Shown here: one piece after another, positions 7,257-19,127 of the stretch | Layout of the letters: each line of letters starts with the position of its first letter | How positions within the stretch are numbered: the stretch's first letter is position 1 | Notes under the pieces: model-generated | Told to the model about the DNA's origin: nothing | Database searches by the model: none | The model's input: only the letters and a program-made list of their open reading frames with translations | From: Arthrobacter globiformis | GTDB taxonomy: Bacteria > Actinomycetota > Actinomycetes > Actinomycetales > Micrococcaceae | Assembly (NCBI RefSeq): GCF_003261175.1 | Contig: NZ_QLNP01000099.1 | Coordinates: 84,311 to 148,310, forward strand | Direction: 5' to 3' | DNA: 64,000 bases | Made by a program: the position numbers and the translations under genes

Positions 7257-7415
7257 TTACCTGCCTTCGGGCAAGTAGTGCAGGCCCAGCCACGGGGCGG
7301 TGGTGAGCTCGCCGGGCTCCACCGCTTGTGAGGGTGCCGCAAGCGCCGGCTCGGAGGCGGACGCCTCGGCGGCTTCGTTGTCGTGGGCGTTCATGGCGTG
7401 CAGGTTAGCGCACAT
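7257..7415 (-). CDS. Small ORF after the MHS transporter (doubtful)
   Basis: A 52-codon frame begins at an ATG (7413-7415) overlapping the last codons of the transporter gene; a second ATG lies at 7394. The product is Ala/Glu/Ser-rich and ends APWLGLHYLPEGR. There is no clear ribosome binding site, no recognised domain and no membrane segment. Translational coupling to the transporter is the only support. Confidence 0.25.
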   Translation of the reverse strand: MCANLHAMNAHDNEAAEASASEPALAAPSQAVEPGELTTAPWLGLHYLPEGR

Positions 7416-8820
7416 CGACGGACGGCTGCCGCGACGGTGTTTGCTGCCCTGCTGCTTCGGCCTGCCGCCGTCGTGCGGTGCCTTCCAGGTATGGTCCTCC
7501 GAGCTCCGCAATGGGCGTGGCGGCAGTCTCCCTTGACCAGAACGCGCATCCTGCCGCAATGAGCATGCAGACGGTGCCGAAGACGGCCACCGGCACCCAG
7601 CCCCAGACTCCGGGAGCAAGCAGCATCCCGGCGATCATCGGGCCAAAGCCGGCGAGGACCAGGCCGAACTGGTTCCCCAGCGCCATTCCGGAGTACCGGA
7701 CGGGCGCCGCGAACTGTTCGGCGAAAAATGCCGGCCAGATGCCGTTGAAGCCCGAGTACAGCACCGTCATGTTCACGAAGGCTGCAAGGAAGACCAGCAC
7801 GATGTTTCCGGAGGACAGCGCCAGGAAGTAGAGGAAGATCGTGACGGAGCAGCCGATCGCGGCCGTCAGCAGGAGAGGGCGGCGGCCGACCCGGTCGGAC
7901 AGCCTGGCCGCCAGCGGCATGGCGAACATGGACAGGCCGATGGCCACTGCGTTCACGGTCAGGATGGCCGCCCGGTCAAATCCCGCGCCCGAGGTGGCGT
8001 AGGCGAGTCCAAAGACCGTGAAGATGGTCTGCATCACGGACATAATGGACATTCCCGCCACCCGTAACACGTCTGGAGCTTGGAAGCGGAGCACTTCCTT
8101 GACGGGCATGGGGGCCACCTGGCGGCGTTCCTGGGCCTCCTCGAAGACCGGTGTTTCGTCCAGATGCGTGCGGACCCAGTAAGCGATGGCCAGCACCACG
8201 ATGGAGAGCCAGAACGGGATGCGCCAGCCCCAGCTCATCATGGCCTCCCGGGGCAGTGCCGTAACTGGGATGAAGACCAGGGTGGCCAGCACCATGCCGG
8301 ACGCGTAACCCGTCATCACGAAGCTGGTGAAGAACCCGCGCCTGCCTTCGGGCGAGTGTTCCAGCGTCAGGGTGGAGGCGCCCGCCGATTCCGCGCCGGC
8401 GGAGAAGCCCTGGGCCAGCCGGCCCGCCACCAGAAGGATGGGGGCCCAGACGCCGAGCTGTTCGTAGGTGGGCAGGAATCCGATGCCGAGGGACGCCAGG
8501 CCCATGATGCCGAGCGTCAGCAGCAGGATCTTCTTGCGGCCCAGTTTGTCGCCGAAATGTCCCATCACCAGTCCGCCAACAGGCCTGGCCACGTACGCGA
8601 CGCCGAAGGTGGCGAAGGCGCCGATCAGACCGATGGCCGGGTCCGCGGAGGGGAAGAACAGGTGGGGGAACACAAGTGCGGCGGCGGTGCCGTAGATGAA
8701 GAAGTCGTAGTACTCCAGCGTGCTGCCGAGGAAGGAGGCCAGGGCTGCCTTTCGGGGCGTCTTCCGCGGGGGCGGCTGGGAAGCCTGCAGCGGAACCTGC
8801 GGTGATGGGGTAGTGGTCAC
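7405..8820 (-). CDS. MHS-family MFS transporter, likely organic-acid/proton symporter (ChcT-like)
   Basis: 471 residues from GTG 8820, preceded by AAGGAGATTCCC; this start is preferred over one ten codons upstream. About 12 transmembrane helices. STLEYYDFFIYGTAAAL in helix 1, RPVGGLVMGHFGDKLGRKK between helices 2 and 3, and GRLAQGFSAGAESAGA in helix 4 are hallmarks of the metabolite:H+ symporter branch of the major facilitator superfamily, which imports carboxylates such as dicarboxylates, shikimate and aromatic acids. It is the last gene of an SDR-desaturase-Dabb-transporter unit, which suggests uptake of the pathway substrate. In the Sinomonas chc cluster the gene chcT is placed next to chcX and chcC in the same way (recalled, not checked). 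The exact substrate is inferred. Confidence 0.87.
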   Translation of the reverse strand: MTTTPSPQVPLQASQPPPRKTPRKAALASFLGSTLEYYDFFIYGTAAALVFPHLFFPSADPAIGLIGAFATFGVAYVARPVGGLVMGHFGDKLGRKKILLLTLGIMGLASLGIGFLPTYEQLGVWAPILLVAGRLAQGFSAGAESAGASTLTLEHSPEGRRGFFTSFVMTGYASGMVLATLVFIPVTALPREAMMSWGWRIPFWLSIVVLAIAYWVRTHLDETPVFEEAQERRQVAPMPVKEVLRFQAPDVLRVAGMSIMSVMQTIFTVFGLAYATSGAGFDRAAILTVNAVAIGLSMFAMPLAARLSDRVGRRPLLLTAAIGCSVTIFLYFLALSSGNIVLVFLAAFVNMTVLYSGFNGIWPAFFAEQFAAPVRYSGMALGNQFGLVLAGFGPMIAGMLLAPGVWGWVPVAVFGTVCMLIAAGCAFWSRETAATPIAELGGPYLEGTARRRQAEAAGQQTPSRQPSVDVR

Positions 8821-8830
8821 GGGAATCTCC

Positions 8831-9160
8831 TTAAGACTGCGTTGTCTCAATGGGTGCCGGCGTAGGGTCCGGAAGGTGGAAGTCCACCGCGAGGATCTGC
8901 CGGCTGTTGGGGAACGAGTACGCCTTTAGCGGCTCGTGGAGGGGGTGCGTGTTGTAGACAGCGATGTCCTCGACGCTTTCAAAGTCGGCCACGATGGCGT
9001 AGTCGAAGGAGCGTTCGGTGTTGAGGACGTCAGGGCCGTGGCTGAGGCTGAGCATGCCGGGGATCTTTCCGGCCATGGTGTTGAGCCCGTCAATCCAGGC
9101 CTGCCGGTCGGCCGGCGGGAAGCCGGGCTTGAACTGGAAGAGCACGGTGTGGCGGATCAT
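8831..9160 (-). CDS. Dabb (stress-responsive A/B barrel) domain protein
   Basis: 109 residues from the ATG at 9160, one base after the desaturase stop codon, so translation is probably coupled. It begins MIRHTVLFQFKPGFPPADRQ, the typical first strand and helix of the dimeric alpha/beta-barrel (Dabb) fold, and includes DYAIVADFESVEDIAVY and HPLHEPLKAY, where the conserved His sits. Family members range from proteins of unknown role to small cyclases acting on polyketide rings. Here it lies between a ring desaturase and a transporter; a role in handling a cyclic keto intermediate is possible but unproven. Confidence 0.8.
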   Translation of the reverse strand: MIRHTVLFQFKPGFPPADRQAWIDGLNTMAGKIPGMLSLSHGPDVLNTERSFDYAIVADFESVEDIAVYNTHPLHEPLKAYSFPNSRQILAVDFHLPDPTPAPIETTQS

Positions 9161-9161
9161 T

Positions 9162-10868
9162 TCAGACGCCCGCCTCGACAAGCCCGGCCACCGGTGACAG
9201 GGCTGCTTGGTCCTCTGGGGACCGGTAATCCGGGGACTGGCCGGCAAGGGTGCGGCCAGCGAGGTAGCCCATGGTCATGATGGGTCCGAGGGTGGCGCCG
9301 GCGCCGGGGTAGCCTGCCGCGTAGGCGTTTTCCGTGGTGTTGCCGGCGGCGAACAGGCCCGGGATGGGGCTGTTGTCGACGTCGAGCACACGGGCTGACC
9401 CGTCGGTAGCCACGCCGCCGTTGGTGCCAAAGGCGCCGTTCACCACCTCCAGCGCGTAGAAGGGCCCGGATTCGAGCGGACCCAGGGACGGGTTCGGCCA
9501 CGGGCAGTCGGCGTCGCCCCAGTATTTGTCGTAGGCGCTTTCGCCGCGGCCGAAGTCGGGGTCCTCGCCCCGCGCCGCGAACTCGTTGAACCGGACCACT
9601 GTGGCTTCCAGGTTCTCCGCGGGAATGCTGATCTTCGCGGCGAGTTCAGCCAGCGTGGGCGCCTCGATCAGGTAACCCGGCGTCGGCTGGCCTGCGCGGT
9701 GGGCAAGGATGCCGTAGCGCTCCAGGTAGCCGTGGTCCACGATCACGTGCGCCGGGGTGTTCAGCGTGCGGTTCGCGGCGGAGTCCCAGGACTGCAGGCT
9801 GCGGGCGAGGTCATTGTAGTTCTGCGACTCGTTGGCGAAGCGGCGCCCGTGGCGGTTCACCATGATGGAGCCCGGGCCCTGCCGCTCGAACCGCAGCAGG
9901 GTGCCAACCGGCTGGCCGTCGCGGGTGTCGCCGGTGACGGACATCGGCGCCCACCAGGCCTCGCGCGTGCCGCGGGTCTGGCCGCCGATGCGCTGCGACA
10001 TCCGCAGCCCGTCACCGGTGTTCGAGGGTGGCGAGCACATGGTGTGGAGCCGGGACGCGAGCATCGAGTCGGCCAGGGCCTTGTCCCATTCGAAGCCGCC
10101 TGTCGCGAGCACCACGCCCTCGCGGGCATGGAACGCCTCACCGGTTTCCAGTTCGACGCCGGTCACCCGGCCGCCGTCGGTGAGCGGACCATCGGTGAGC
10201 AGGCGGTGCCCGCGGGCCCCGGTGACGAGTGTGGCTCCGTCGCGGACCAGGCTGGCGAGCAGCATGGAAACGAGCGCCTGCCCCTTGGCAACGAGGCCCT
10301 TCTCCTGGCGGCTGGCCAAGTCCTCCCACGGAAACTTGGTGAAGGCGCCCCACTCTTCGTATTCCTGCATGGTGAACGGGGCGCGGCCGTCACTGCGCAC
10401 GTGCACCCGGAGGGCGCCCAGCGCTTCGGTGCTGTTGAACAGCTCCGGCTCAATCGTGCGGCCGCCCGCCACTGCACCCGGGAGATCCTGCCGGTAGTCG
10501 GGGAAGTTGTCGAGGAAGATGAAGCGGACGCCGCACTCCTCCTCGACGAAGCGCAGCATCTGGTCGCCGTAGTTCAGGGCGGCGTCCAGCAGATCCTCAC
10601 GGCCCCTGCCGCGGGCGACGGCGCGCACGTACGCCGCTGCTGCTGCCTTGGAATCGGTGATCCCGGCCTTCCGTGCGTGATGGTTGTCCGCCACCCAGAG
10701 CATGCCGCCAGACACGGCCGAGGTCCCGCCCAGCAGGTCACTCTTTTCGAGGACGACGACGGACTTGCCGGCATGGGCGGCGGTGGCCGCCGCGGTGAGT
10801 GCTCCCGCACCGGAACCGACGACGACGACGTCGTAAGTGTCCGCGGGGGTGCCGTTGACGAATTTCAT
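9162..10868 (-). CDS. KstD-like FAD-dependent ring desaturase A (candidate 4-oxocyclohexanecarboxylate desaturase)
   Basis: 568 residues; ATG preceded by GAAAGG. The N-terminal dinucleotide-binding fold is VVVVGSGAGALTAAATA (~14-30), then VVLEKSDLLGGTSAVSGG (~38-55). The C-terminal flavin-binding segment is GLFAAGNTT followed by AGYPGAGATLG (~505-527). These are the signatures of the 3-ketosteroid delta-1-dehydrogenase / fumarate reductase flavoprotein group, which abstracts hydrogens next to a ring ketone. It is cotranscribed after the SDR, as expected for an enzyme using the ketone that the SDR makes. A paralogue lies at 12738-14498. Which of the two acts first cannot be told from sequence alone. 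A steroid substrate is a possible alternative, but no other steroid genes are nearby. Confidence 0.85.
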   Translation of the reverse strand: MKFVNGTPADTYDVVVVGSGAGALTAAATAAHAGKSVVVLEKSDLLGGTSAVSGGMLWVADNHHARKAGITDSKAAAAAYVRAVARGRGREDLLDAALNYGDQMLRFVEEECGVRFIFLDNFPDYRQDLPGAVAGGRTIEPELFNSTEALGALRVHVRSDGRAPFTMQEYEEWGAFTKFPWEDLASRQEKGLVAKGQALVSMLLASLVRDGATLVTGARGHRLLTDGPLTDGGRVTGVELETGEAFHAREGVVLATGGFEWDKALADSMLASRLHTMCSPPSNTGDGLRMSQRIGGQTRGTREAWWAPMSVTGDTRDGQPVGTLLRFERQGPGSIMVNRHGRRFANESQNYNDLARSLQSWDSAANRTLNTPAHVIVDHGYLERYGILAHRAGQPTPGYLIEAPTLAELAAKISIPAENLEATVVRFNEFAARGEDPDFGRGESAYDKYWGDADCPWPNPSLGPLESGPFYALEVVNGAFGTNGGVATDGSARVLDVDNSPIPGLFAAGNTTENAYAAGYPGAGATLGPIMTMGYLAGRTLAGQSPDYRSPEDQAALSPVAGLVEAGV

Positions 10869-10937
10869 GGGGTGTTGCCTTTCAAAAGGAAAATGATGGG
10901 TGCTGCCGCAGGTGGGAGCTGCTGGGGTGGTCCGGCG

Positions 10938-11699
10938 TCAGACGGCTGTGTAGCCGCCGTCGATGACCAGCTCTGAACCGGTGGTGAAGCGCGACTCGTC
11001 AGAGGCCAGGTAGAGCACGCCGTACGCGATCTCGTCCGGTTCGCCCTGGCGGGGCAGCGGGTTGGAGCCCACCAGTTGCTTGTAGTAGGCCTCGGCACCG
11101 ATGTCCGACTGCTCCGCGGAGCGGCGGCTCATCCTGGTGTTCATGGATCCGGGGTGGATGGAGTTGACCCGGATGCCGTAACCGCCGTAGGCCGCCGCGT
11201 CCGACTTGCTCAGAAGCCGCACAGCGCCCTTGGTGGCGTGGTAGAGCGGGACATTCCGGCCGCCGGTGAGGCCGTGGATGGAGGAAAAATTGACGATGCT
11301 GCCGGTGCCTTTTTCGATCATGCCGGGGACCACGTGCTTGGTCATCAGCCAGACGCCCTTGACGTTGACGCTGAAAATCGTGTCGAAGTCGGCCGTCGAG
11401 GCCGTGTGCGAGGCTCCTGCCGGGCCGATGATGCCAGCGGCGTTGACCAGGATGTCCGGTGTGCCCAGTTCGTCCCGGACCCGGCGAATGGCGTCGGCTA
11501 CGCTGGCCTCGCTGGTGACATCGACGTCGTACTCACTGATGTTTTGGTGGGCAGCGGCGGCCGGGATGCCGGCAACGTCCAGGCTGGCAACCTTCGCGCC
11601 GTGCTCGGCAAGGAGGGCGGCGGTGGCACTGCCCAGGTCTCCGCGGCCTCCGGTGACAATGGCGGTCTTTCCGGCCACGCGGTTCTGGATGGGATTCAT
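10938..11699 (-). CDS. Short-chain dehydrogenase/reductase (candidate 4-hydroxycyclohexanecarboxylate dehydrogenase)
   Basis: 253 residues from the ATG at 11699, with GAGGAG nine bases upstream. It has the classical SDR signature: cofactor motif TGGRGDLGSATAAL (~17-30; TGxxxxxG-like), DVDVTSEASV, the NAAG segment (VNAAGIIGP), the catalytic Ser in VNFSSIHG and the YHATKGA box with Tyr and Lys. Asp at the end of the second strand (VASLDVAG) favours NAD over NADP. It would oxidise a secondary alcohol to a ketone. It is the first gene of the unit that continues with the KstD-like enzyme, the Dabb protein and the transporter. In the published chc pathway, SDRs (ChcB) oxidise 4-hydroxycyclohexanecarboxylate. 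Confidence 0.88.
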   Translation of the reverse strand: MNPIQNRVAGKTAIVTGGRGDLGSATAALLAEHGAKVASLDVAGIPAAAAHQNISEYDVDVTSEASVADAIRRVRDELGTPDILVNAAGIIGPAGASHTASTADFDTIFSVNVKGVWLMTKHVVPGMIEKGTGSIVNFSSIHGLTGGRNVPLYHATKGAVRLLSKSDAAAYGGYGIRVNSIHPGSMNTRMSRRSAEQSDIGAEAYYKQLVGSNPLPRQGEPDEIAYGVLYLASDESRFTTGSELVIDGGYTAV

Positions 11700-11779
11700 G
11701 TGTTGCTCCTCGTGATCCTGCAGCCTCATCGCTGCTTCCCAGCCAGCGTGGCAGGGGACCTGTGAGGCGAACCACACAA

Positions 11780-11796
11780 TTGCCGATGAACGGCAA
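11780..11796. promoter_or_regulatory. Candidate IclR operator upstream of the SDR operon
   Basis: TTGCCG and CGGCAA are perfect 6-base inverted arms around the spacer ATGAA, 81-97 bases upstream of the SDR start. The inner 11 bases CCGATGAACGG recur at 15329-15339 upstream of the P450 gene. The position between the IclR gene and the SDR operon, plus the shared core, suggests a regulator binding site. Confidence 0.55.
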
Positions 11797-11818
11797 AACC
11801 GGATTTCAGTGGCCTTGC

Positions 11819-12604
11819 TCAGTGACTCTGGCGAAGAGTGCCCTTCAGCTCGCCCCGCCAGCCCAGCGCCCGGGAGATCCCGCGCGCCGCGGCCATCAGC
11901 ACGGGCACCCGGGCCGGGGCGTTCTCCTCGTTGCGCGGCACCACGACGCTGAGCGCGGCGCGGACGGTGTTGTCGGAGCCAAACACCGGCACGGCGATGC
12001 CGCTGGACTCGGGAACGATCACTCCCGGCATGGCAGCGAAGCCACGCTGCCGGATCTCGGCCAGGTGGCGCCGGAGCGCGGCCGGCTCGGTCAGGGTGGT
12101 CTCGGTGAACTTCGTCAGCGGCCGGGCCAGGAAGGCGTCCTGGTACGCGGCGGGGGAGTGTGCCAGCAGTACCAGTCCCGAGGATGTGGCGTGGACCGGC
12201 AGCCTGCCGGCGATCTTGGTGATGTCCACGATCGTTTTGTCCGAGCCGAGCCGCTCGATGTACAGGACCTCGTCCGAATCGAGGATGCCCAGTGTGGTGG
12301 AGTGCTGCACCACGGCCTGGATATCCTCCATGAATGGCAGCGCGGCTTCCCGCAGGCCCAGCATCTTGGAACCGCGGGAGGCCAGTTCCCACATCCGCGT
12401 GCCGACGTGGATGTCCCCGTCGGGGTCGCGTTCCAGCAGACGCTCGAGCAGCAGGTCGTTGACCAGTCGGTAGGTGGTGGTCACCGGCAGGCCGGTGCGT
12501 CGCCCCAGCTCGGCGACGCTCATGGCAGGGTGCCGGTCATCGAAGGCGCTCACGATTTTCACGAAGCGGCCGATGATCGACTCGCCGGATGCGGAGTTGG
12601 CCAC
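11819..12604 (-). CDS. IclR-family transcriptional regulator 1
   Basis: 261 residues from GTG 12604, preceded by AGGAGGAACA. The N-terminal winged helix-turn-helix (~10-70) contains MSVAELGRRTGLPVTTTYRL; the IclR effector-binding domain (~85-250) contains LHTMW-equivalent GTRMWELASRG, DEVLYIERL and HATSSGLVLLAHSP, ending in a region rich in the usual IAVPVFGSDN motif. IclR proteins bind small acids and act as repressors or activators of aromatic and alicyclic acid catabolism. It lies upstream of and in line with the SDR operon, and divergent from the second desaturase. A close paralogue is at 14519-15271; both begin with the MANS-SGES- pattern. Confidence 0.9.
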   Translation of the reverse strand: MANSASGESIIGRFVKIVSAFDDRHPAMSVAELGRRTGLPVTTTYRLVNDLLLERLLERDPDGDIHVGTRMWELASRGSKMLGLREAALPFMEDIQAVVQHSTTLGILDSDEVLYIERLGSDKTIVDITKIAGRLPVHATSSGLVLLAHSPAAYQDAFLARPLTKFTETTLTEPAALRRHLAEIRQRGFAAMPGVIVPESSGIAVPVFGSDNTVRAALSVVVPRNEENAPARVPVLMAAARGISRALGWRGELKGTLRQSH

Positions 12605-12675
12605 TGTTCCTCCTGTCGATTCCCGCTCAATGGTAATCCTCCTCCCGGGCGGCCGTGCTCCCGGCTCTACTGGGG

Positions 12676-12689
12676 GTTTGTCAGCAAAC
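12676..12689. promoter_or_regulatory. Inverted repeat in the IclR1/desaturase B divergent region
   Basis: GTTTG-TCAG-CAAAC is a perfect 5-base inverted repeat with a 4-base spacer, between the divergent starts at 12604 and 12738. It does not share the CCGATGAACGG core, so it may be a separate operator or chance. Confidence 0.3.
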
Positions 12690-12737
12690 GCCTGCCGCCG
12701 CAAAGGAGTGGCCCGCAGGCAGAACGGAGCAGGAACC

Positions 12738-14498
12738 ATGACAGAAACTTTGGCAGAAACCGCAAAGACGGCGGTCTGTGACGTCCTCGTCATCGGATCG
12801 GGTGTGGCCGGGATGGCCGCAGCATTGAAGGCCGCATCGCAGGGACTGAGCGTGATCGTCGCGGAAAAGGAGCAGCACTTCGGCGGAACCACCGCCATTT
12901 CCGCGGGCTGGGCATGGGTCCCCGGCAACAAGCACGGCGTGGCGCAGGGCGATACCCGCGGGGACGCCGAGAGCTACCTGAAGAACCTGGCGCCGGAGAC
13001 GTACAACGAGGCAGGAGTTCGGAACTTCCTGGACACCGTGCCTGAAGCGATCTCCTTCTTCGAAAACGAAACCGAGGTGAAGTTCACCTACCCGGAGAAG
13101 GCCCCGGACTACCAGATGGACCTGCCTGGCGCGAGGCTGTCCGGCCGGGCCATCCTGCCGCAGGACGTGGATGCACGGGTGCTCGGGGACAAGCGGCTCC
13201 TGATGCAGCCGTACATGAGTTCCTACACCGTCTTCGGCTACATGCCGCAGGTGGGGCCGGACATCAACGAGTTCTTCCACGTGAACCAGTCGCTTAAGTC
13301 CTTCATCTACGTGGCCAGGAAGCTGCTGCGCACCTGGGCCGATGCCGCCCGCTACAAGCGTCCGGTCCTGCGCTCCAACGGCAACGCCCTCATGACCCGT
13401 ATGGTCAAAAGCGCCGACGACCTGGGCATCCGGCTGTGGAAATGCTCACCGGCGCTGTCCCTCACCAGGGACGACGCCGGGACCGTCACCGGTGCGGTCA
13501 TCGGGGGAGAGCACGCCATCACCGTCACTGCGCGGGCGGGCGTCATCCTCGCCGCGGGCGGATTCTCCGGAAACCGGGAACTACGGCAGCGGTATTTCCC
13601 TCACGACGCCGGCGGCGACGACCACTTCACCCCCACCGTGGGCCACGGCGGCGACGCCGCCACACTGGCGATCGCAGCCGGAGGCTACATCGACGATTCC
13701 GTGTTCAGCGTTGGCTCCTGGGCCCCGGTGACCGTGTTCAAATATCTCAGCGGTGAACAGCGGCTCTTTCCGCATCTGCGGGCCATCGGCCTGCCCGGAC
13801 TGATCGCCGTCGACCGCCACGGCAGGCGCTTCGGTAACGAGGCCCTGAGCTACCACGACTTCGGCTGGGCCATGATTGAGCACAACAAGGACGAGGTCGG
13901 AACCTTCGGCTACGTGATCGGCGACGCGAAAACGATGCACAAATACGGCATCGGCTATGCCAAGCCCTGGCCGATGCCCCGCGGCTACTTCTACAGGACC
14001 GGCTACCTGGTCAAAGGGAACACCCTTGCTGAGCTCGCCGGAAAGCTCGGCATCGATGCAGCGGGCCTGGAGGCCACCGTCGCCGGATTCAACCCGGCGG
14101 CTGAACGCGGCGAGGACCCGGCGTTCGGCCGCGGTTCCACCCAGTACAACCACTTCCGGGGCGATCTCGAGCACAAGCCGAACCCGAACCTCGCGCCGGT
14201 GGGCAAGGGCCCGTACTACGCGGCGAAGATCCAAATGGGCGATCTGGGCACCTTCGCCGGCCTCGGCGTCAACGAGCACTCCGAGGTGGTCACGGCGGAG
14301 GGCTCGGTGGTGCCCGGCCTGCTGGCCGTGGGTGCGGCCGCGGTGAGCGTCTTCGGCGGCGGTTACCCCGGCTATGGCTCCCACATCGGGCCGGCCCTGG
14401 TGTTTGGCTACCGCGCGGGCCGGGACATCGCCAGGCTTGCCGCTAAGAGGAACGCGGACCAGACAGGGGCGCGTCCGGCCAACGTGGCGGGCAACTAG
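12738..14498 (+). CDS. KstD-like FAD-dependent ring desaturase B (candidate second ring desaturase)
   Basis: 586 residues from the ATG at 12738, with GGAGCAGGAACC upstream. VLVIGSGVAGMAAALKA (~15-31) and HFGGTTAISAGWAWVPGN (~48-65) form the FAD-binding start; GGGYPGYGSHIGPALV near the C-terminus is the matching end. The fold is the same as in desaturase A, but the intervening sequence differs widely, so this is an old paralogue and not a recent copy. It is followed after 20 bases by IclR regulator 2, so the pair likely forms one transcript. In the published cyclohexanecarboxylate pathway two such flavoproteins act in turn to give 4-hydroxybenzoate; this gene would supply one of them. That assignment is inferred. 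Confidence 0.84.
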   Translation: MTETLAETAKTAVCDVLVIGSGVAGMAAALKAASQGLSVIVAEKEQHFGGTTAISAGWAWVPGNKHGVAQGDTRGDAESYLKNLAPETYNEAGVRNFLDTVPEAISFFENETEVKFTYPEKAPDYQMDLPGARLSGRAILPQDVDARVLGDKRLLMQPYMSSYTVFGYMPQVGPDINEFFHVNQSLKSFIYVARKLLRTWADAARYKRPVLRSNGNALMTRMVKSADDLGIRLWKCSPALSLTRDDAGTVTGAVIGGEHAITVTARAGVILAAGGFSGNRELRQRYFPHDAGGDDHFTPTVGHGGDAATLAIAAGGYIDDSVFSVGSWAPVTVFKYLSGEQRLFPHLRAIGLPGLIAVDRHGRRFGNEALSYHDFGWAMIEHNKDEVGTFGYVIGDAKTMHKYGIGYAKPWPMPRGYFYRTGYLVKGNTLAELAGKLGIDAAGLEATVAGFNPAAERGEDPAFGRGSTQYNHFRGDLEHKPNPNLAPVGKGPYYAAKIQMGDLGTFAGLGVNEHSEVVTAEGSVVPGLLAVGAAAVSVFGGGYPGYGSHIGPALVFGYRAGRDIARLAAKRNADQTGARPANVAGN

Positions 14499-14518
14499 GC
14501 GCCGGGCCGGAGACAGCC

Positions 14519-15271
14519 ATGGCCAACTCGACATCGGGGGAATCGGTGATCAGCCGCGTGGTGCGGCTCATGAGCGCCTTCGACCGGGACCTGCCGGCCA
14601 TGACGCTCTCCGGCCTTGCCCGCCGCGCCGGCCTCCCGCTGACCACCGCGCACCGGCTCGTGGATGACCTGGTCCTCCACGGTCTGATTGAGCGGCTACC
14701 GGACGGGAACCTCTGCTCCGGGATGCGCATGTGGGAGCTCGCTGCCCGGGGCTCGCGCGCGCTGAACCTGCGCGAGCTGGCGCTGCCCTTCATGGAGGAT
14801 GTCCAGGCCGCCGTCCACCAGCACACCACCCTGGCCGTGCTGGACCACGGCACTGTGCTGTATGTGGAGCGGCTCTCCTCTCCGCACTCCAGCCTTGACG
14901 CCGCCCATATTGCCCAGCGGATGCCCATCCACGCAGCCTCGTCGGGCCTGGTGCTGCTGGCGTTCTCGCCGCCCGTTGTCCAGGCCGAGGTGCTGGCGAA
15001 GCCCCTGAAGGCGGCGACCCCTGAAACCATCACCGATTCAGCCCTCATCCGTAAGCATCTGGCCGAGATCAGGCAGCGCGGCTACGTGGCGCTGCCCGGC
15101 ATCGGAGTCACAGAGTGGACGGGCGTTGCCGTGCCTGTCTTTGGGCCCGGCAACACGATTGCTGCAGCGCTCAACGCCATTGTGCCGCGGCAGGACGCCG
15201 CGGTTCCGTTGATCGTCCCCGCCCTGCTGACCGCAGCCCACGGAATCTCCCGCGCCCTGAAATCCGCTTAG
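14519..15271 (+). CDS. IclR-family transcriptional regulator 2
   Basis: 250 residues, ATG with GGAGACAGCC upstream. The N-terminal helix-turn-helix includes MTLSGLARRAGLPLTTAHRL; the effector domain includes GMRMWELAARGSRALNL, TVLYVERL, IHAASSGLVLLAFSP and VAVPVFGPGNT. It aligns along its full length with regulator 1, including EIRQRG and ALPFMEDVQA. It is encoded directly after desaturase B and 160 bases before the P450 operon. It probably senses a cluster intermediate and controls one or more of the three transcription units. Confidence 0.9.
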   Translation: MANSTSGESVISRVVRLMSAFDRDLPAMTLSGLARRAGLPLTTAHRLVDDLVLHGLIERLPDGNLCSGMRMWELAARGSRALNLRELALPFMEDVQAAVHQHTTLAVLDHGTVLYVERLSSPHSSLDAAHIAQRMPIHAASSGLVLLAFSPPVVQAEVLAKPLKAATPETITDSALIRKHLAEIRQRGYVALPGIGVTEWTGVAVPVFGPGNTIAAALNAIVPRQDAAVPLIVPALLTAAHGISRALKSA

Positions 15272-15328
15272 TCCCCAGGCCGGACCCGCCGAATCCGCCT
15301 GGCCCGGCGAGCCGGCAAACTTTCGCAA

Positions 15329-15339
15329 CCGATGAACGG
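15329..15339. promoter_or_regulatory. Candidate IclR operator upstream of the P450 operon
   Basis: CCGATGAACGG, identical to the core of the palindrome at 11780-11796, lies 94-104 bases upstream of the P450 start, nearly the same distance as in the SDR operon. The outer arms are less perfect here (GCAA before, AAGA after). Confidence 0.5.
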
Positions 15340-15432
15340 AAGACCTGTGGGGGCGGCCGCAGCACATCCCGCAAGGTGGACTGAGAGGCGGATCACATCC
15401 GAATTCGCCGCAGCCCACCGGAAAGAAGGACG

Positions 15433-16692
15433 ATGATGTCTGCTCTACAGACGGAAATCCTGCCCCCGTACTCGCATGAACTCGACTGGCCCGAGGGTAT
15501 GGCGCCCTTCAAGGTGGTGGACGACGGGACCCAGGGCGATCCTTACCGGCACTATCAGTGGATGCGAGAGAACGCCCCGGTGCTCCGTGCCCATTCACCC
15601 GTATCGGATGTCTGGTTCATCTCCCGGTACGACGACGTACGCCGGGCCATGCGGGCACCGAAAGTCTTCTCGTCGCAGGTCGTGGACCCGGTTCCGCTGA
15701 CCTTCCTGACGCTGTTCGACGCACCCAACCACACCCGTCTGCGCCAGGTCGTGGCGCAGGCCTTCATTCCCAAGGCCATTGCCCGCTTCGAGGACCGGGT
15801 GCGGGAGAACGCGGATAAGTACTTAGCGCCGATGCTCGCCGCCGGCGGCGGTGACGCCGTGGACGACTACGCCATCCCCCTGAGCATGTCCACCATCAGC
15901 GCCCTGCTCGACGTTCCTGCCGAGGACTTCGAGAAGATGAAGTTCTGGTCGGACGAGACCTTCAGCTACTTCGGCCGGCTGGCCCGCAACGCCCAGGGCA
16001 CAGGCACCGACGAGCAGAGCACCTTCGAGTTCTTCGCCTACCTGAAGGACACGATGGAGCGCCTGTACCGCGAGGAGAGCGACTCCGTCGGCGGACACAT
16101 CGCCCGGATGTGGAAGGAAGGCCTGCTCAGCGAGAAGGAGGCCAAGGAACTCTGCGCCTTTGTCTTCGTCGCAGGCCATGACACCACCACCATTCTTTTG
16201 GCCAACGCATTCCGGATGTTCAGCGAACAGCCGGACCTGCTGGACAGGATCCGACGGAACCCCAACGACGCGAACCTCTTCGTCGAGGAGTTGGCCCGCT
16301 ACCGCGGCACCGTCCAGCGTGCCAGCCGGATCACCACAGAGGAGGTGGAGGTTTCCGGTGTGACCATTCCGGCCGGCGCCATCGTGCGCCTGCTGCCCGC
16401 CGCAGCGAACCGGGACAGCAGCAAATATCCCGACGGCGAGCGCTTCGACATCGACCGCGACACCGACGGCCACCTGGGCTTCGGGCACGGAGTCCACAGC
16501 TGCCTCGGTGCGCCCCTCGCCAGGCTTGAGGTCCTGGTGACCGTCAAGCTCCTTGCCGAAAAGCTGACGTCACTCACGCTGGATCCGGACAAGCCCATCG
16601 AGTATGTGCGCGGCAACAACCTAACAAACTCGGGCCCGGAGCACCTGCACGTGATGCTCGGACAGATCAATGCAGGGCAGACCAATGCATAG
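15433..16692 (+). CDS. Bacterial class I cytochrome P450 (candidate cyclohexanecarboxylate 4-hydroxylase)
   Basis: 419 residues, soluble. AAGGA precedes the tandem ATG ATG. All P450 landmarks are present: the oxygen-activation motif in helix I, FVAGHDTTT (~246-254); the K-helix ExxR in EELARYR (~284-290); and the haem ligand loop FGHGVHSCLGAPLAR (~346-360) with the Cys. It would insert oxygen into an unactivated C-H bond using electrons from the next two genes, with which it forms a tight operon (8-base overlap with the reductase). In the Sinomonas chc cluster the equivalent ChcAa hydroxylates cyclohexanecarboxylate. The substrate here is inferred from gene context; terpenoid hydroxylation is an alternative. 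Confidence 0.93.
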   Translation: MMSALQTEILPPYSHELDWPEGMAPFKVVDDGTQGDPYRHYQWMRENAPVLRAHSPVSDVWFISRYDDVRRAMRAPKVFSSQVVDPVPLTFLTLFDAPNHTRLRQVVAQAFIPKAIARFEDRVRENADKYLAPMLAAGGGDAVDDYAIPLSMSTISALLDVPAEDFEKMKFWSDETFSYFGRLARNAQGTGTDEQSTFEFFAYLKDTMERLYREESDSVGGHIARMWKEGLLSEKEAKELCAFVFVAGHDTTTILLANAFRMFSEQPDLLDRIRRNPNDANLFVEELARYRGTVQRASRITTEEVEVSGVTIPAGAIVRLLPAAANRDSSKYPDGERFDIDRDTDGHLGFGHGVHSCLGAPLARLEVLVTVKLLAEKLTSLTLDPDKPIEYVRGNNLTNSGPEHLHVMLGQINAGQTNA

Positions 16693-17989
16693 CCCTGAAA
16701 CCACACGCCACGAAACCGGGAACGGAACCGCAGCGCCGGTGGTCATCGTCGGCGCGGGACACTCCGGCGTCGCTGTCGCCGCGGGGCTCCGCTCCCGCGG
16801 CTGGGAAGGCGGCGTCATGCTGATCGACGCGGAGAACGAAGTGCCCTATGAACGGCCGCCGCTCTCCAAGGAACTCCTGAAGGACGGCGCCCCCGACGAG
16901 TCCGCCGTGCTCCGCAAGGAGAGGTTCTATGCGGACAAGGGCATCGGCCGCCTCGCCGGGATAACCGCGGAATCCATCGACAGGAACAGCCGGACTGTAT
17001 TGCTGTCCGACGGGACGGGGCAGGCCTACCACCGGCTGGTCATCGCCACAGGCTCGCGGGCACGGCCCCTCACCTTGCCAGGCGCCGGTCTTCCCGGCGT
17101 CAGATGCTTGCGGACCCGGGATGACGCCCTCGAACTCAAGCGGCTGCTGGTCGCGGGGGCCCGCGTGGCCATCATCGGCGCCGGGTACATCGGGCTGGAG
17201 GTGGCCGCAGCGGCGGCGGCGAGGGGCTGTGACGTCACGGTGCTCGAATTCCAGGACCGCGTGATGAGCCGGGTAACGTCAGCCCCCGTCTCGCGCTATT
17301 TCGAGCAGCTGCACGGGCGCCACGGGGTCCGGTTCGTCTTCGGCGCCGCCGTAACGTCGATCGACGGCGGACAACGGGCCGAGCGCGTGACCGTCGCCGA
17401 CGGCACCGTCTTTCCTGCCGACGTCGTCCTCGCCGGGATCGGCGTCCTGCCCAACCAGGAGCTGGCCGCGGACGCCGGCCTGGAGTGCCGGGACGGCATC
17501 CTCGTTGACGGGGATGGCAGGACGTCCGATTCCGCCGTCTATGCCAGCGGGGACGTCACGCGCTTCACCAGTCCCGTCGACGGCGCCAGCCAGCGGCTCG
17601 AGTGCATCCAGAACGCGCAGGCACAGGCAGACCGGGTGGCAGCGCACATCACCGGCCAGGCCGCCGCTGAACCGGAAATCCCCTGGTTCTGGACCGTCCA
17701 GCACGGTGTACGGCTGCAAACCGCGGGCGTCCGCCAGCCGGAGGACGAGGCGATCGTCCGCGGAGAACCCTCCGGCGGCAAATTCTCGGTGGTCTACCTC
17801 CGCGACGGCCGCCTCGCCGCCGTCGACACCATCGCGAACCTGGCCGACTTCCGCACGGCCAAACGGCTGATCGCCCAGGGAGCCCGGATCGACCCGGTGT
17901 TGGCCGCGGACCCCGGCATCCCCCTCGCCGAAGCCACTTCCAGCACACCCAACCACTCCGACGCTGACCTTGCAGCAGCGCGATCCTAA
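16685..17989 (+). CDS. FAD-dependent ferredoxin reductase for the P450
   Basis: 434 residues from ATG 16685, overlapping the P450 stop by 8 bases. It has two nucleotide-binding folds: FAD site VVIVGAGHSGVAVAAGL (~19-35) and NAD site VAIIGAGYIGLEVAAAAA (~161-178). PYERPPLSKELL and the C-terminal YASGDVTRF are typical of the putidaredoxin reductase/rubredoxin reductase group. It passes electrons from NAD(P)H to the ferredoxin encoded 10 bases downstream. It corresponds in type to one of the electron-transfer partners in the chcAaAbAc unit. Confidence 0.92.
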   Translation: MHSPETTRHETGNGTAAPVVIVGAGHSGVAVAAGLRSRGWEGGVMLIDAENEVPYERPPLSKELLKDGAPDESAVLRKERFYADKGIGRLAGITAESIDRNSRTVLLSDGTGQAYHRLVIATGSRARPLTLPGAGLPGVRCLRTRDDALELKRLLVAGARVAIIGAGYIGLEVAAAAAARGCDVTVLEFQDRVMSRVTSAPVSRYFEQLHGRHGVRFVFGAAVTSIDGGQRAERVTVADGTVFPADVVLAGIGVLPNQELAADAGLECRDGILVDGDGRTSDSAVYASGDVTRFTSPVDGASQRLECIQNAQAQADRVAAHITGQAAAEPEIPWFWTVQHGVRLQTAGVRQPEDEAIVRGEPSGGKFSVVYLRDGRLAAVDTIANLADFRTAKRLIAQGARIDPVLAADPGIPLAEATSSTPNHSDADLAAARS

Positions 17990-17999
17990 GGAAACCGAC

Positions 18000-18338
18000 A
18001 TGAGCAACACCAGCATGAGCAGCAATACACTGACCGTCGTCGACCGCGATGGCGCCACCCACGACCTTGAATGGGAACCGGACCAGAGCATGATGGAAGC
18101 CCTCCGGGACAACGACCTGCCCGTGCTGGCATCGTGCGGCGGCACCGCCTCCTGCGCCACCTGCCACGTGTTCGTGGAGCAGGAAGTCTTCGACACCCTG
18201 GAAGAACGCAGCGAGGACGAACTCGAGCTCCTCGTGGAGGCCGAGGGGTACCGGGAATGCGGCTCGCGGCTCTCCTGCCAAGTGGCCTTCAGCCGCGACC
18301 TCAACGGTGTCACCGTGACGCTGGCACCAGAGGGGTAG
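18000..18338 (+). CDS. [2Fe-2S] ferredoxin for the P450
   Basis: 112 residues from ATG 18000, with AAGGAAACCGAC upstream. The cluster ligands are Cys in the pattern SCGGTASCATCHVF (CX5CX2C, ~42-52) and a fourth Cys in SRLSCQVAF (~91), as in vertebrate-type/putidaredoxin-like ferredoxins. It completes a self-contained three-component monooxygenase with the preceding two genes and is followed by a long hairpin. Confidence 0.93.
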   Translation: MSNTSMSSNTLTVVDRDGATHDLEWEPDQSMMEALRDNDLPVLASCGGTASCATCHVFVEQEVFDTLEERSEDELELLVEAEGYRECGSRLSCQVAFSRDLNGVTVTLAPEG

Positions 18339-18352
18339 ACTGCTGCGCTCCG

Positions 18353-18414
18353 TTTCGACGGTTCCCTGCCCACACGTCGTTGCGAAGCGTCTAACGGGCG
18401 GGGAACCGTCGAAA
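18353..18414. terminator. Long hairpin between ferredoxin and the convergent gene
   Basis: TTTCGACGGTTCCC (18353-18366) pairs perfectly with GGGAACCGTCGAAA (18401-18414), with further GCCC/GGGC pairing inside the 34-base loop. It lies just after the ferredoxin stop and just before the stop of the convergent gene, so it probably acts as a two-way terminator. T-runs are short. Confidence 0.65.
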
Positions 18415-18437
18415 TGGCGGTGGCTCCGGCGGCAGGG

Positions 18438-19127
18438 CTACCAGGGAGGCGGGTCCGTCACCGTTACCCGCACCGCGCAGGCGTCCGCCGCGGCCTTCTT
18501 CAGGACGGCGGCCCGGGGGTCGGGAACATCGAGGTAGGCCAGGCGCGGCAGGCCTGCCCAGGGCTTCAGAGCAGGGTGCGCCAAAACTTCGTCAGCCAGG
18601 CCGCGGTCGCCGCCCGGGAGGATGTACCCGAAGACCTGGCCACCGAAGACCAGCCGCGCCTGCTCCGCCACCGCCTCCACCATGGCGTCCGCCTGGTTGG
18701 CGCGGCGCCGGGCGAACCGCTGCTGCGACTGGCCGCCGGCCGCGGTCCGGGACTGCACATACTTGGAACCGGTCTTGGCGGCGAGGATGACCCCTTCACT
18801 GGCGACGGCCACTCCGTATCCTCCGCGGCGGACCAGGAGCAGGCCGACCGTGCGCGGCTGGGAAGCCAGGGAAGCCAGCCGTTCCACGAGGCCGGATCCG
18901 CGCCCCGGCCGCCCGTCGTCGGGCCACGGCGCCACCAGCAGCGCGGTGGCGCCGTCCGCGGCGGCCAGCCGTACGCCGTCGTCGTGGTCCTCATACCCCA
19001 GGTCACCGTGGCTGGCGGCGAACCGTTCAACCCAGCCGGCCAACCGCGGGCCGGGGATGAACGCGGTCCTGGTGGACCCCACACGTCCCTGCGCTGCATG
19101 TCCCTGTTCCGGACGGCTGCCTGGCAT
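18438..19127 (-). CDS. acVLRF1-type peptidyl-tRNA hydrolase
   Basis: 229 residues from ATG 19127; a GTG at 19082 (AGGGA upstream) would give the more usual N-terminus VGSTRTAFIPGPRLAGW. The central segment GSKYVQSRTAAGGQSQQRF (~121-139) followed by ARRRANQAD is the hallmark of the Vms1-like release-factor fold found in actinobacteria (acVLRF1). Members of this family release nascent chains from tRNA on obstructed large ribosomal subunits; the GGQ-like loop with Gln is the catalytic element. The C-terminal YLDVPDPRAAVLKKAAADA is also typical. It is transcribed divergently from rarA. The specific in-cell role in this organism is inferred from the family. Confidence 0.82.
   Translation of the reverse strand: MPGSRPEQGHAAQGRVGSTRTAFIPGPRLAGWVERFAASHGDLGYEDHDDGVRLAAADGATALLVAPWPDDGRPGRGSGLVERLASLASQPRTVGLLLVRRGGYGVAVASEGVILAAKTGSKYVQSRTAAGGQSQQRFARRRANQADAMVEAVAEQARLVFGGQVFGYILPGGDRGLADEVLAHPALKPWAGLPRLAYLDVPDPRAAVLKKAAADACAVRVTVTDPPPW

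Follow-up and report, generated by a model that had tools for sequence, protein, structure and literature searches.

Which ring compound is degraded by the ten catabolic genes that lie between positions 7405 and 18338 of the analysed stretch of Arthrobacter globiformis DNA, and which enzyme forms the ring ketone on the way? The stretch, hereafter the window, comprises 64,000 nucleotides (NCBI RefSeq assembly GCF_003261175.1, contig NZ_QLNP01000099.1, positions 84,311 to 148,310 of the forward strand). A first-pass annotation had proposed a rearranged island of the chc type, the gene cluster for the aromatisation of cyclohexanecarboxylate to 4-hydroxybenzoate. In passages of PMC9795900, Arthrobacter is named among the bacteria reported to carry out this conversion and one gene cluster is cited for it, which stems from Sinomonas; the chc cluster of Sinomonas cyclohexanicum ATCC 51369 was described by Yamamoto et al. 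(2021, J Biosci Bioeng 132:621, as cited there). From the sequence comparisons described below we consider it likely that the window carries an Arthrobacter chc cluster, in which a short-chain dehydrogenase/reductase (SDR) probably takes the place of ChcB1 and in which one or both of two IclR-family regulators, R1 and R2, would exert control via the site CCGATGAACGG. The SDR and its clade are designated B3, a label of our own. The pathway as such is already known; what the analysis adds is an apparently displaced dehydrogenase, a site common to two units and an apparent acquisition and loss of the locus by modules.

Desaturases and gene order of the block

The classification of the block is based on its two KstD-like flavoproteins, C1 (9162..10868, minus strand) and C2 (12738..14498, plus strand). 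Both are flavin adenine dinucleotide (FAD) enzymes, predicted to act as 4-oxocyclohexanecarboxylate 2-dehydrogenase and 4-oxocyclohex-2-ene-1-carboxylate 5-dehydrogenase, respectively. C1 reached 1012.3 bits with the curated ChcC1 equivalog model (NF053676, cut-off 1000) and C2 1013 bits with that of ChcC2 (NF053677, cut-off 900). Since both exceed the chc cut-offs, the block is assigned to the chc-type clusters. As a scale, the Sinomonas C1 of a genome with the full cluster (G119) scored 1019.8 bits on NF053676. C1 and C2 belong to the same flavoprotein superfamily as KstD and presumably share its chemistry, the desaturation beside a ring ketone; Tyr351, Tyr520 and Gly524 of C1 align with KstD positions which we take to be catalytic. 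However, the curated KstD equivalog cut-off of 789 bits was missed by both, the best steroid model giving 399.7 bits for C1 and 388.6 bits for C2. The proposed chc-type identity of the flavoproteins was hereby borne out, as they pass the chc desaturase cut-offs and fail those of the steroid dehydrogenases.

The genes named in the first-pass annotation (an MHS transporter, a Dabb protein, two KstD-like flavoproteins, an SDR, two IclR regulators and a P450-reductase-ferredoxin set) were all found within the span given for them. The minus-strand genes, which read leftward, are the PcaR/PobR-like regulator R1 (11819..12604; IclR_C, 109 bits), the SDR B3 (10938..11699), C1, the Dabb (alpha/beta barrel) protein X (8831..9160; PF07876, 69.4 bits) and T (7405..8820), an MHS-type proton symporter of the MFS with MFS_1 and Sugar_tr matches. 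On the plus strand C2 is followed by R2 (14519..15271), identified by IclR profile matches, and then by the cytochrome P450 Aa (15433..16692; PF00067), the FAD- and NADH-dependent ferredoxin reductase Ab (16685..17989; Pyr_redox_2 and Reductase_C) and the [2Fe-2S] ferredoxin Ac (18000..18338; Fer2, cysteine motif CGGTASCATC).

Scanning the genome collection for C2 with a pattern-based search yielded 44 loci. The complete order and strands of the ten genes recur in 13 of them (L034-L039, L041-L043, L045, L049, L065 and L072), with an insertion 5' of the P450 gene in L065 and with T and the ferredoxin reductase each matched in two pieces in L072. The grouping of the ten genes is therefore not due to chance. 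S. cyclohexanicum itself is absent from the 44 loci, and three Sinomonas loci (L053, L055, L057) served as proxies. They carry the genes on one strand in the order R1-C1-X-T-C2-B1-B2-R2-P450-FdR-Fd (FdR, ferredoxin reductase; Fd, ferredoxin). This corresponds to the order C1-X-T-C2-B1-B2-R-Aa-Ab-Ac given in the first-pass annotation, preceded by one additional IclR gene. C1, C2, X, T, two IclR genes and the P450 trio, the latter in identical order, are common to the window and the Sinomonas clusters. Identities to the three loci amount to 79% for C2, 75% for C1, 74-77% for P450, 70-74% for T, 67-69% for X, 62-66% for R2, 61-64% for the ferredoxin, 58-62% for its reductase and 56-58% for R1. 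In contrast to Sinomonas, the genes of the window are distributed over two strands, with T-X-C1 inverted relative to C2, the block sits between aspS and rarA, and a single SDR is found instead of ChcB1 and ChcB2. While the other nine genes are 56-79% identical, this SDR shares just 37-39% with its nearest Sinomonas counterpart.

An SDR of a third lineage

With 164.4 bits on the ChcB1 model (NF053702, cut-off 400) and 149.5 bits on the ChcB2 model (NF053701, cut-off 350), the window SDR stays below both cut-offs. The single SDR of the first-pass annotation is present, but it passes as neither of the two known dehydrogenases, which are specific for trans- (ChcB1) and cis-4-hydroxycyclohexanecarboxylate (ChcB2). 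ChcB2 was not found elsewhere in the window's own genome either, at 1e-85 with 47 of 58 candidates scored. The same applies to three B3 relatives, the four proteins scoring 157-166 bits on the ChcB1 and 149-175 bits on the ChcB2 model; the two SDRs of the Sinomonas locus L055 pass with 451.9 (ChcB1) and 408.2 bits (ChcB2). The 71 SDR matches in the fetched loci fell into groups of 35, 18 and 13 sequences and five singletons. Each group was set apart by a branch, with supports of 100/100 for B3, 100/99 for ChcB1 and 100/97 for ChcB2, ungrouped sequences being left out of the count. An SDR of the window's own genome (L001) was placed among the ChcB1 sequences and L051_other with those of ChcB2, both on long branches.

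Like ChcB1 and ChcB2, B3 is an SDR with the catalytic residues Ser, Tyr and Lys and an Asp following strand 2; its identity to five of their representatives is 35-43%. Ser140, Tyr153, Lys157 and Asp41 are invariant in nine aligned SDRs including B3, for which reason B3 should be active and probably prefers nicotinamide adenine dinucleotide (NAD). Its best solved sequence matches are the dihydroanticapsin 7-dehydrogenase BacC (5itv, 1.2e-40), barely ahead of other SDRs and just 33% identical over 242 aligned residues, and an isopiperitenol dehydrogenase (7djs, 1.2e-39). Both enzymes act, as we assume, on six-ring alcohols, and BacC presumably oxidises a ring hydroxyl para to a side chain. A plasmid-borne relative of B3 (in L123) is annotated as glucose 1-dehydrogenase.

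The distribution of the three SDRs was analysed in 43 whole genomes, which do not include that of L053. ChcB1 above its cut-off was found in 13 genomes and B3 (E<=1e-60) in 26, both in none and neither in four; ChcB2 occurred in 13 genomes, ten of them with ChcB1, two with B3 and one with neither. As the best candidates per genome were scored (up to 47 or 61), these counts have a small blind spot. In two genomes of the same genus (G011 and G058) B3 and ChcB2 lie in one locus, and G047 carries ChcB2 in one locus and B3-C1-X next to P450 in another. Because B3 and ChcB1 never occur together in the 43 genomes and ChcB2 is found with either of them, B3 probably replaces ChcB1. Along the C2 tree the B1/B3 label switches four times, and at least two switches are forced by well-supported branches; one such branch joins Arthrobacter sp. 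SDTb3-6, which has ChcB1, to 24 sequences with B3. P450 matches (1e-90) were obtained in 23 of the 43 genomes, comprising 19 of the 26 with B3, two of the 13 with ChcB1 and two with neither, the best matches in G127, G132 and G133 being just 50-62% identical; L053, known as a locus alone, also has a P450 gene. The P450 is optional in chc clusters; where it is absent, 4-hydroxy or 4-oxo acids would be the starting substrates.

Operator-like site and chromosomal position

Both the B3-C1-X-T unit and the P450 unit have the near-palindromic site CCGATGAACGG upstream. One copy (11783..11793, plus strand) lies between B3 and R1, 84 bases upstream of B3, the other (15329..15339, plus strand) 94 bases upstream of the P450 gene. 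Shuffled sequences gave an expectation of 0.07 copies for the window, and two copies occurred in none of 100 shuffles. The whole genome contains 12 exact copies versus three of the reversed control. Ten of the 12 lie outside the chc block, and some of these could be targets of other IclR regulators.

A degenerate form, CCGWTSAWCGG, which was fitted after these loci had been seen, is present at 46 sites in the 22,636 bp between chc genes versus 13 sites in the remaining 861,786 bp of the loci; its reversed control gave none and one, respectively. It occurs between chc genes in 32 of the 44 loci, many of which are near copies of one another. In Sinomonas and Tersicoccus it is located between R1 and C1, in Kocuria, Glutamicibacter and Microbacterium beside R1. 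R1 or R2 may bind the CCGATGAACGG-type site. R1 scores 113.1 bits on TIGR02431, under the cut-off of 284.75; R2 is 57% identical to R1 and is the counterpart of the regulator preceding the P450 gene in Sinomonas.

Apparent core genes flank the block: to the left hisS, aspS and a GNAT gene, the latter two identified by visual inspection, and to the right acVLRF1, rarA/mgsA and alaS. At the right edge, acVLRF1 (18438-19127, minus strand) encodes an actinobacterial VLRF1-type release factor protein. Between it and the ferredoxin gene lies a strong hairpin (18350..18417) with 22-base arms (18350-18371 and 18396-18417) and a folding energy of -62.9 kcal/mol (fold of 18339-18437). It is absent from the T-run terminator matches and is possibly a two-way terminator shared by the ferredoxin gene and the convergent acVLRF1. 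Since the G+C content of the block (67.0%) is close to that of the flanks (67.8% and 67.0%), there is no compositional sign of recent acquisition.

C2 above its cut-off was found in 14 of 99 genomes including that of the window, all of the same genus. Among the same-genus genomes without such a C2 (47), the aspS-rarA interval was inspected in 16. Ten have the order aspS-GNAT-acVLRF1-rarA with no gene of at least 80 codons called between GNAT and acVLRF1. The other six comprise three intervals with other genes, one at a contig edge and two half-clusters, namely T-X-C1-B3-R1 alone (G026) and R2-P450-FdR-Fd alone (G028). With empty sites and half-clusters in the same interval, the chc locus appears to have come and gone module by module at one constant position. 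The three intervals with non-chc genes between GNAT and acVLRF1 belong to G010, G012 and G004 (L114, L115 and L118); the interval is perhaps a small insertion hot spot. In G020 (L088, 10140-11921) C2 is broken into two pieces by one stop and the cluster looks decayed; five other genes stand in place of the P450 unit, as in L040.

Proposed pathway and alternative readings

According to the proposed pathway, T would bring in cyclohexanecarboxylate, which the P450, served by Ab and Ac, would hydroxylate at C4. B3, as stand-in for ChcB1 (trans-4-hydroxycyclohexanecarboxylate dehydrogenase), would use NAD+ to convert the 4-hydroxyl into the ketone. Two pairs of hydrogens beside the ketone would next be removed, first by C1 and then by C2, and the resulting dienone would tautomerise to 4-hydroxybenzoate, perhaps with the help of X, for which we propose a role as tautomerase or isomerase helper. 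R1 and/or R2 would jointly control the B3-C1-X-T and P450 units via the shared CCGATGAACGG-type site. We infer substrate, reaction order, activity and stereochemistry of B3, function of X and regulator binding. T is a probable importer of an alicyclic acid; its best models, the metabolite/H+ symporter 2A0106 (371.6 bits, cut-off 443.45) and a shikimate transporter (320.7 bits, cut-off 538), stay under their cut-offs. The P450 contains FGHGVHSCLG at residues 350-359, which we take to be the heme-Cys motif; it matched nine NCBIfam models, with no chc model among them and none near its cut-off. Completion of the degradation would fall to enzymes encoded elsewhere in the genome, namely a PobA-like hydroxylase and those of the protocatechuate pathway. 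PcaH (protocatechuate 3,4-dioxygenase) exceeds its cut-off (349.6 versus 296.4 bits) and lies on the same contig as the PobA-like protein. The genome's gene set agrees with the 4-hydroxybenzoate route as given in PMC9795900, which leads to protocatechuate.

Several observations weigh against this pathway or blur it. The margin of C1 over the ChcC1 cut-off is just 12 bits, and the PobA-like protein, which an IclR gene adjoins, scores 417.2 bits, under its cut-off of 538.7. CCGWTSAWCGG is missing between chc genes in 12 of the 44 loci, and exact CCGATGAACGG was not found 5' of the P450 gene in the three Sinomonas loci, where versions with one or two mismatches lie at -60. The predicted fold of B3 is that of an ordinary SDR and discriminates nothing, and the solved relatives of the P450 are spread over many functions. 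Kinship confounds the exclusivity of ChcB1 and B3, since the majority of B3 genomes are Arthrobacter; the hypergeometric value of 6.5e-8 takes no account of it. Moreover, G131 was counted as B3 on a 62% match on a contig other than that of C2 and also encodes a ChcB1-like protein of 337.8 bits (under 400).

The remaining points of this kind bear on the alternative that survives best, in which the core pathway is the same but the 4-hydroxyl is oxidised by another SDR, leaving B3 with some other or additional substrate, for instance a doubly hydroxylated ring. Of 49 matches to the ChcB1 model in the window's own genome, three score above B3 (284.9, 207.5 and 167.6 versus 163.2 bits). In Rhodococcus jostii and Amycolatopsis (G134, G132) B3 adjoins C2 with no C1 at 1e-130, and its substrate could differ there. 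However, none of the 49 matches reaches 400 bits, and the neighbourhood of the best one (C42:157230; L091, 9225-9971), with an ABC transporter, luciferase-like and NADP-binding proteins, looks unrelated by eye. B3 adjoins C1 in the 13 complete loci and never accompanies ChcB1 in the 43 genomes, so that we regard this alternative as rather unlikely.

A different alicyclic or terpenoid acid, degraded by the same logic of hydroxylation, ketone formation and desaturation with cyclohexanecarboxylate as an incidental substrate, is less probable still. The P450 substrate is unreadable from sequence, and the two best solved matches of B3 act on other six-ring alcohols; yet both desaturases exceed specific equivalog cut-offs, and the nine of ten genes with 56-79% identical counterparts in the Sinomonas loci include P450 and transporter. 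The first-pass annotation had also considered that P450 and flavoproteins might belong to steroid or terpene families, which does not hold for the flavoproteins, the P450 matches being undiagnostic. A fragment of steroid degradation with KstD enzymes and a steroid P450 is highly improbable: among solved structures, 3-ketosteroid dehydrogenases are closest in sequence to C1 and C2, with tyrosines aligned, but steroid models stay far under their cut-offs where the chc models are passed, and none of the ten block genes exceeds any steroid cut-off among the matches listed.

Beyond the chc cluster proposed here, a wider and tentative idea is that C1-C2-X-T-R1 forms a portable cassette for ring-ketone aromatisation with swappable ketone-forming modules. 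These modules might be a P450 with ChcB1, ChcB2 or B3, an SDR alone, or possibly, in Mycobacterium adipatum, an aminotransferase whose substrate is an amino-ring acid. X (Dabb, or YciI in Rhodococcus) would complete the aromatisation as a tautomerase, and one conserved IclR operator would keep the regulon together through rearrangement, splitting and partial loss. On plasmid pMYC1 of M. adipatum (L124, 6844-14854) a C2-like flavoprotein gene (58% identical) lies with genes for an IclR regulator, YciI, an aminotransferase of the aspartate aminotransferase family and pcaHG/pcaC, a set that suggests an amino-ring acid feeding into protocatechuate. A minimal transporter-IclR-C2-YciI-B3 set with no C1 in view is present in L070 and on plasmid pRZP2 of Rhodococcus sp. 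ZPP (L123, 5619-10712); the Dabb protein X is replaced by an annotated YciI protein in L123 and by a similar small frame in L070.

For the chc reading, the window supplies the likely Arthrobacter genes for the conversion of cyclohexanecarboxylate to 4-hydroxybenzoate and predicts a 4-hydroxycyclohexanecarboxylate dehydrogenase of a third lineage. If this is true, degraders without ChcB1 and ChcB2 would become recognisable from their sequences, and repeated non-orthologous displacement could be tested cleanly in this pathway.

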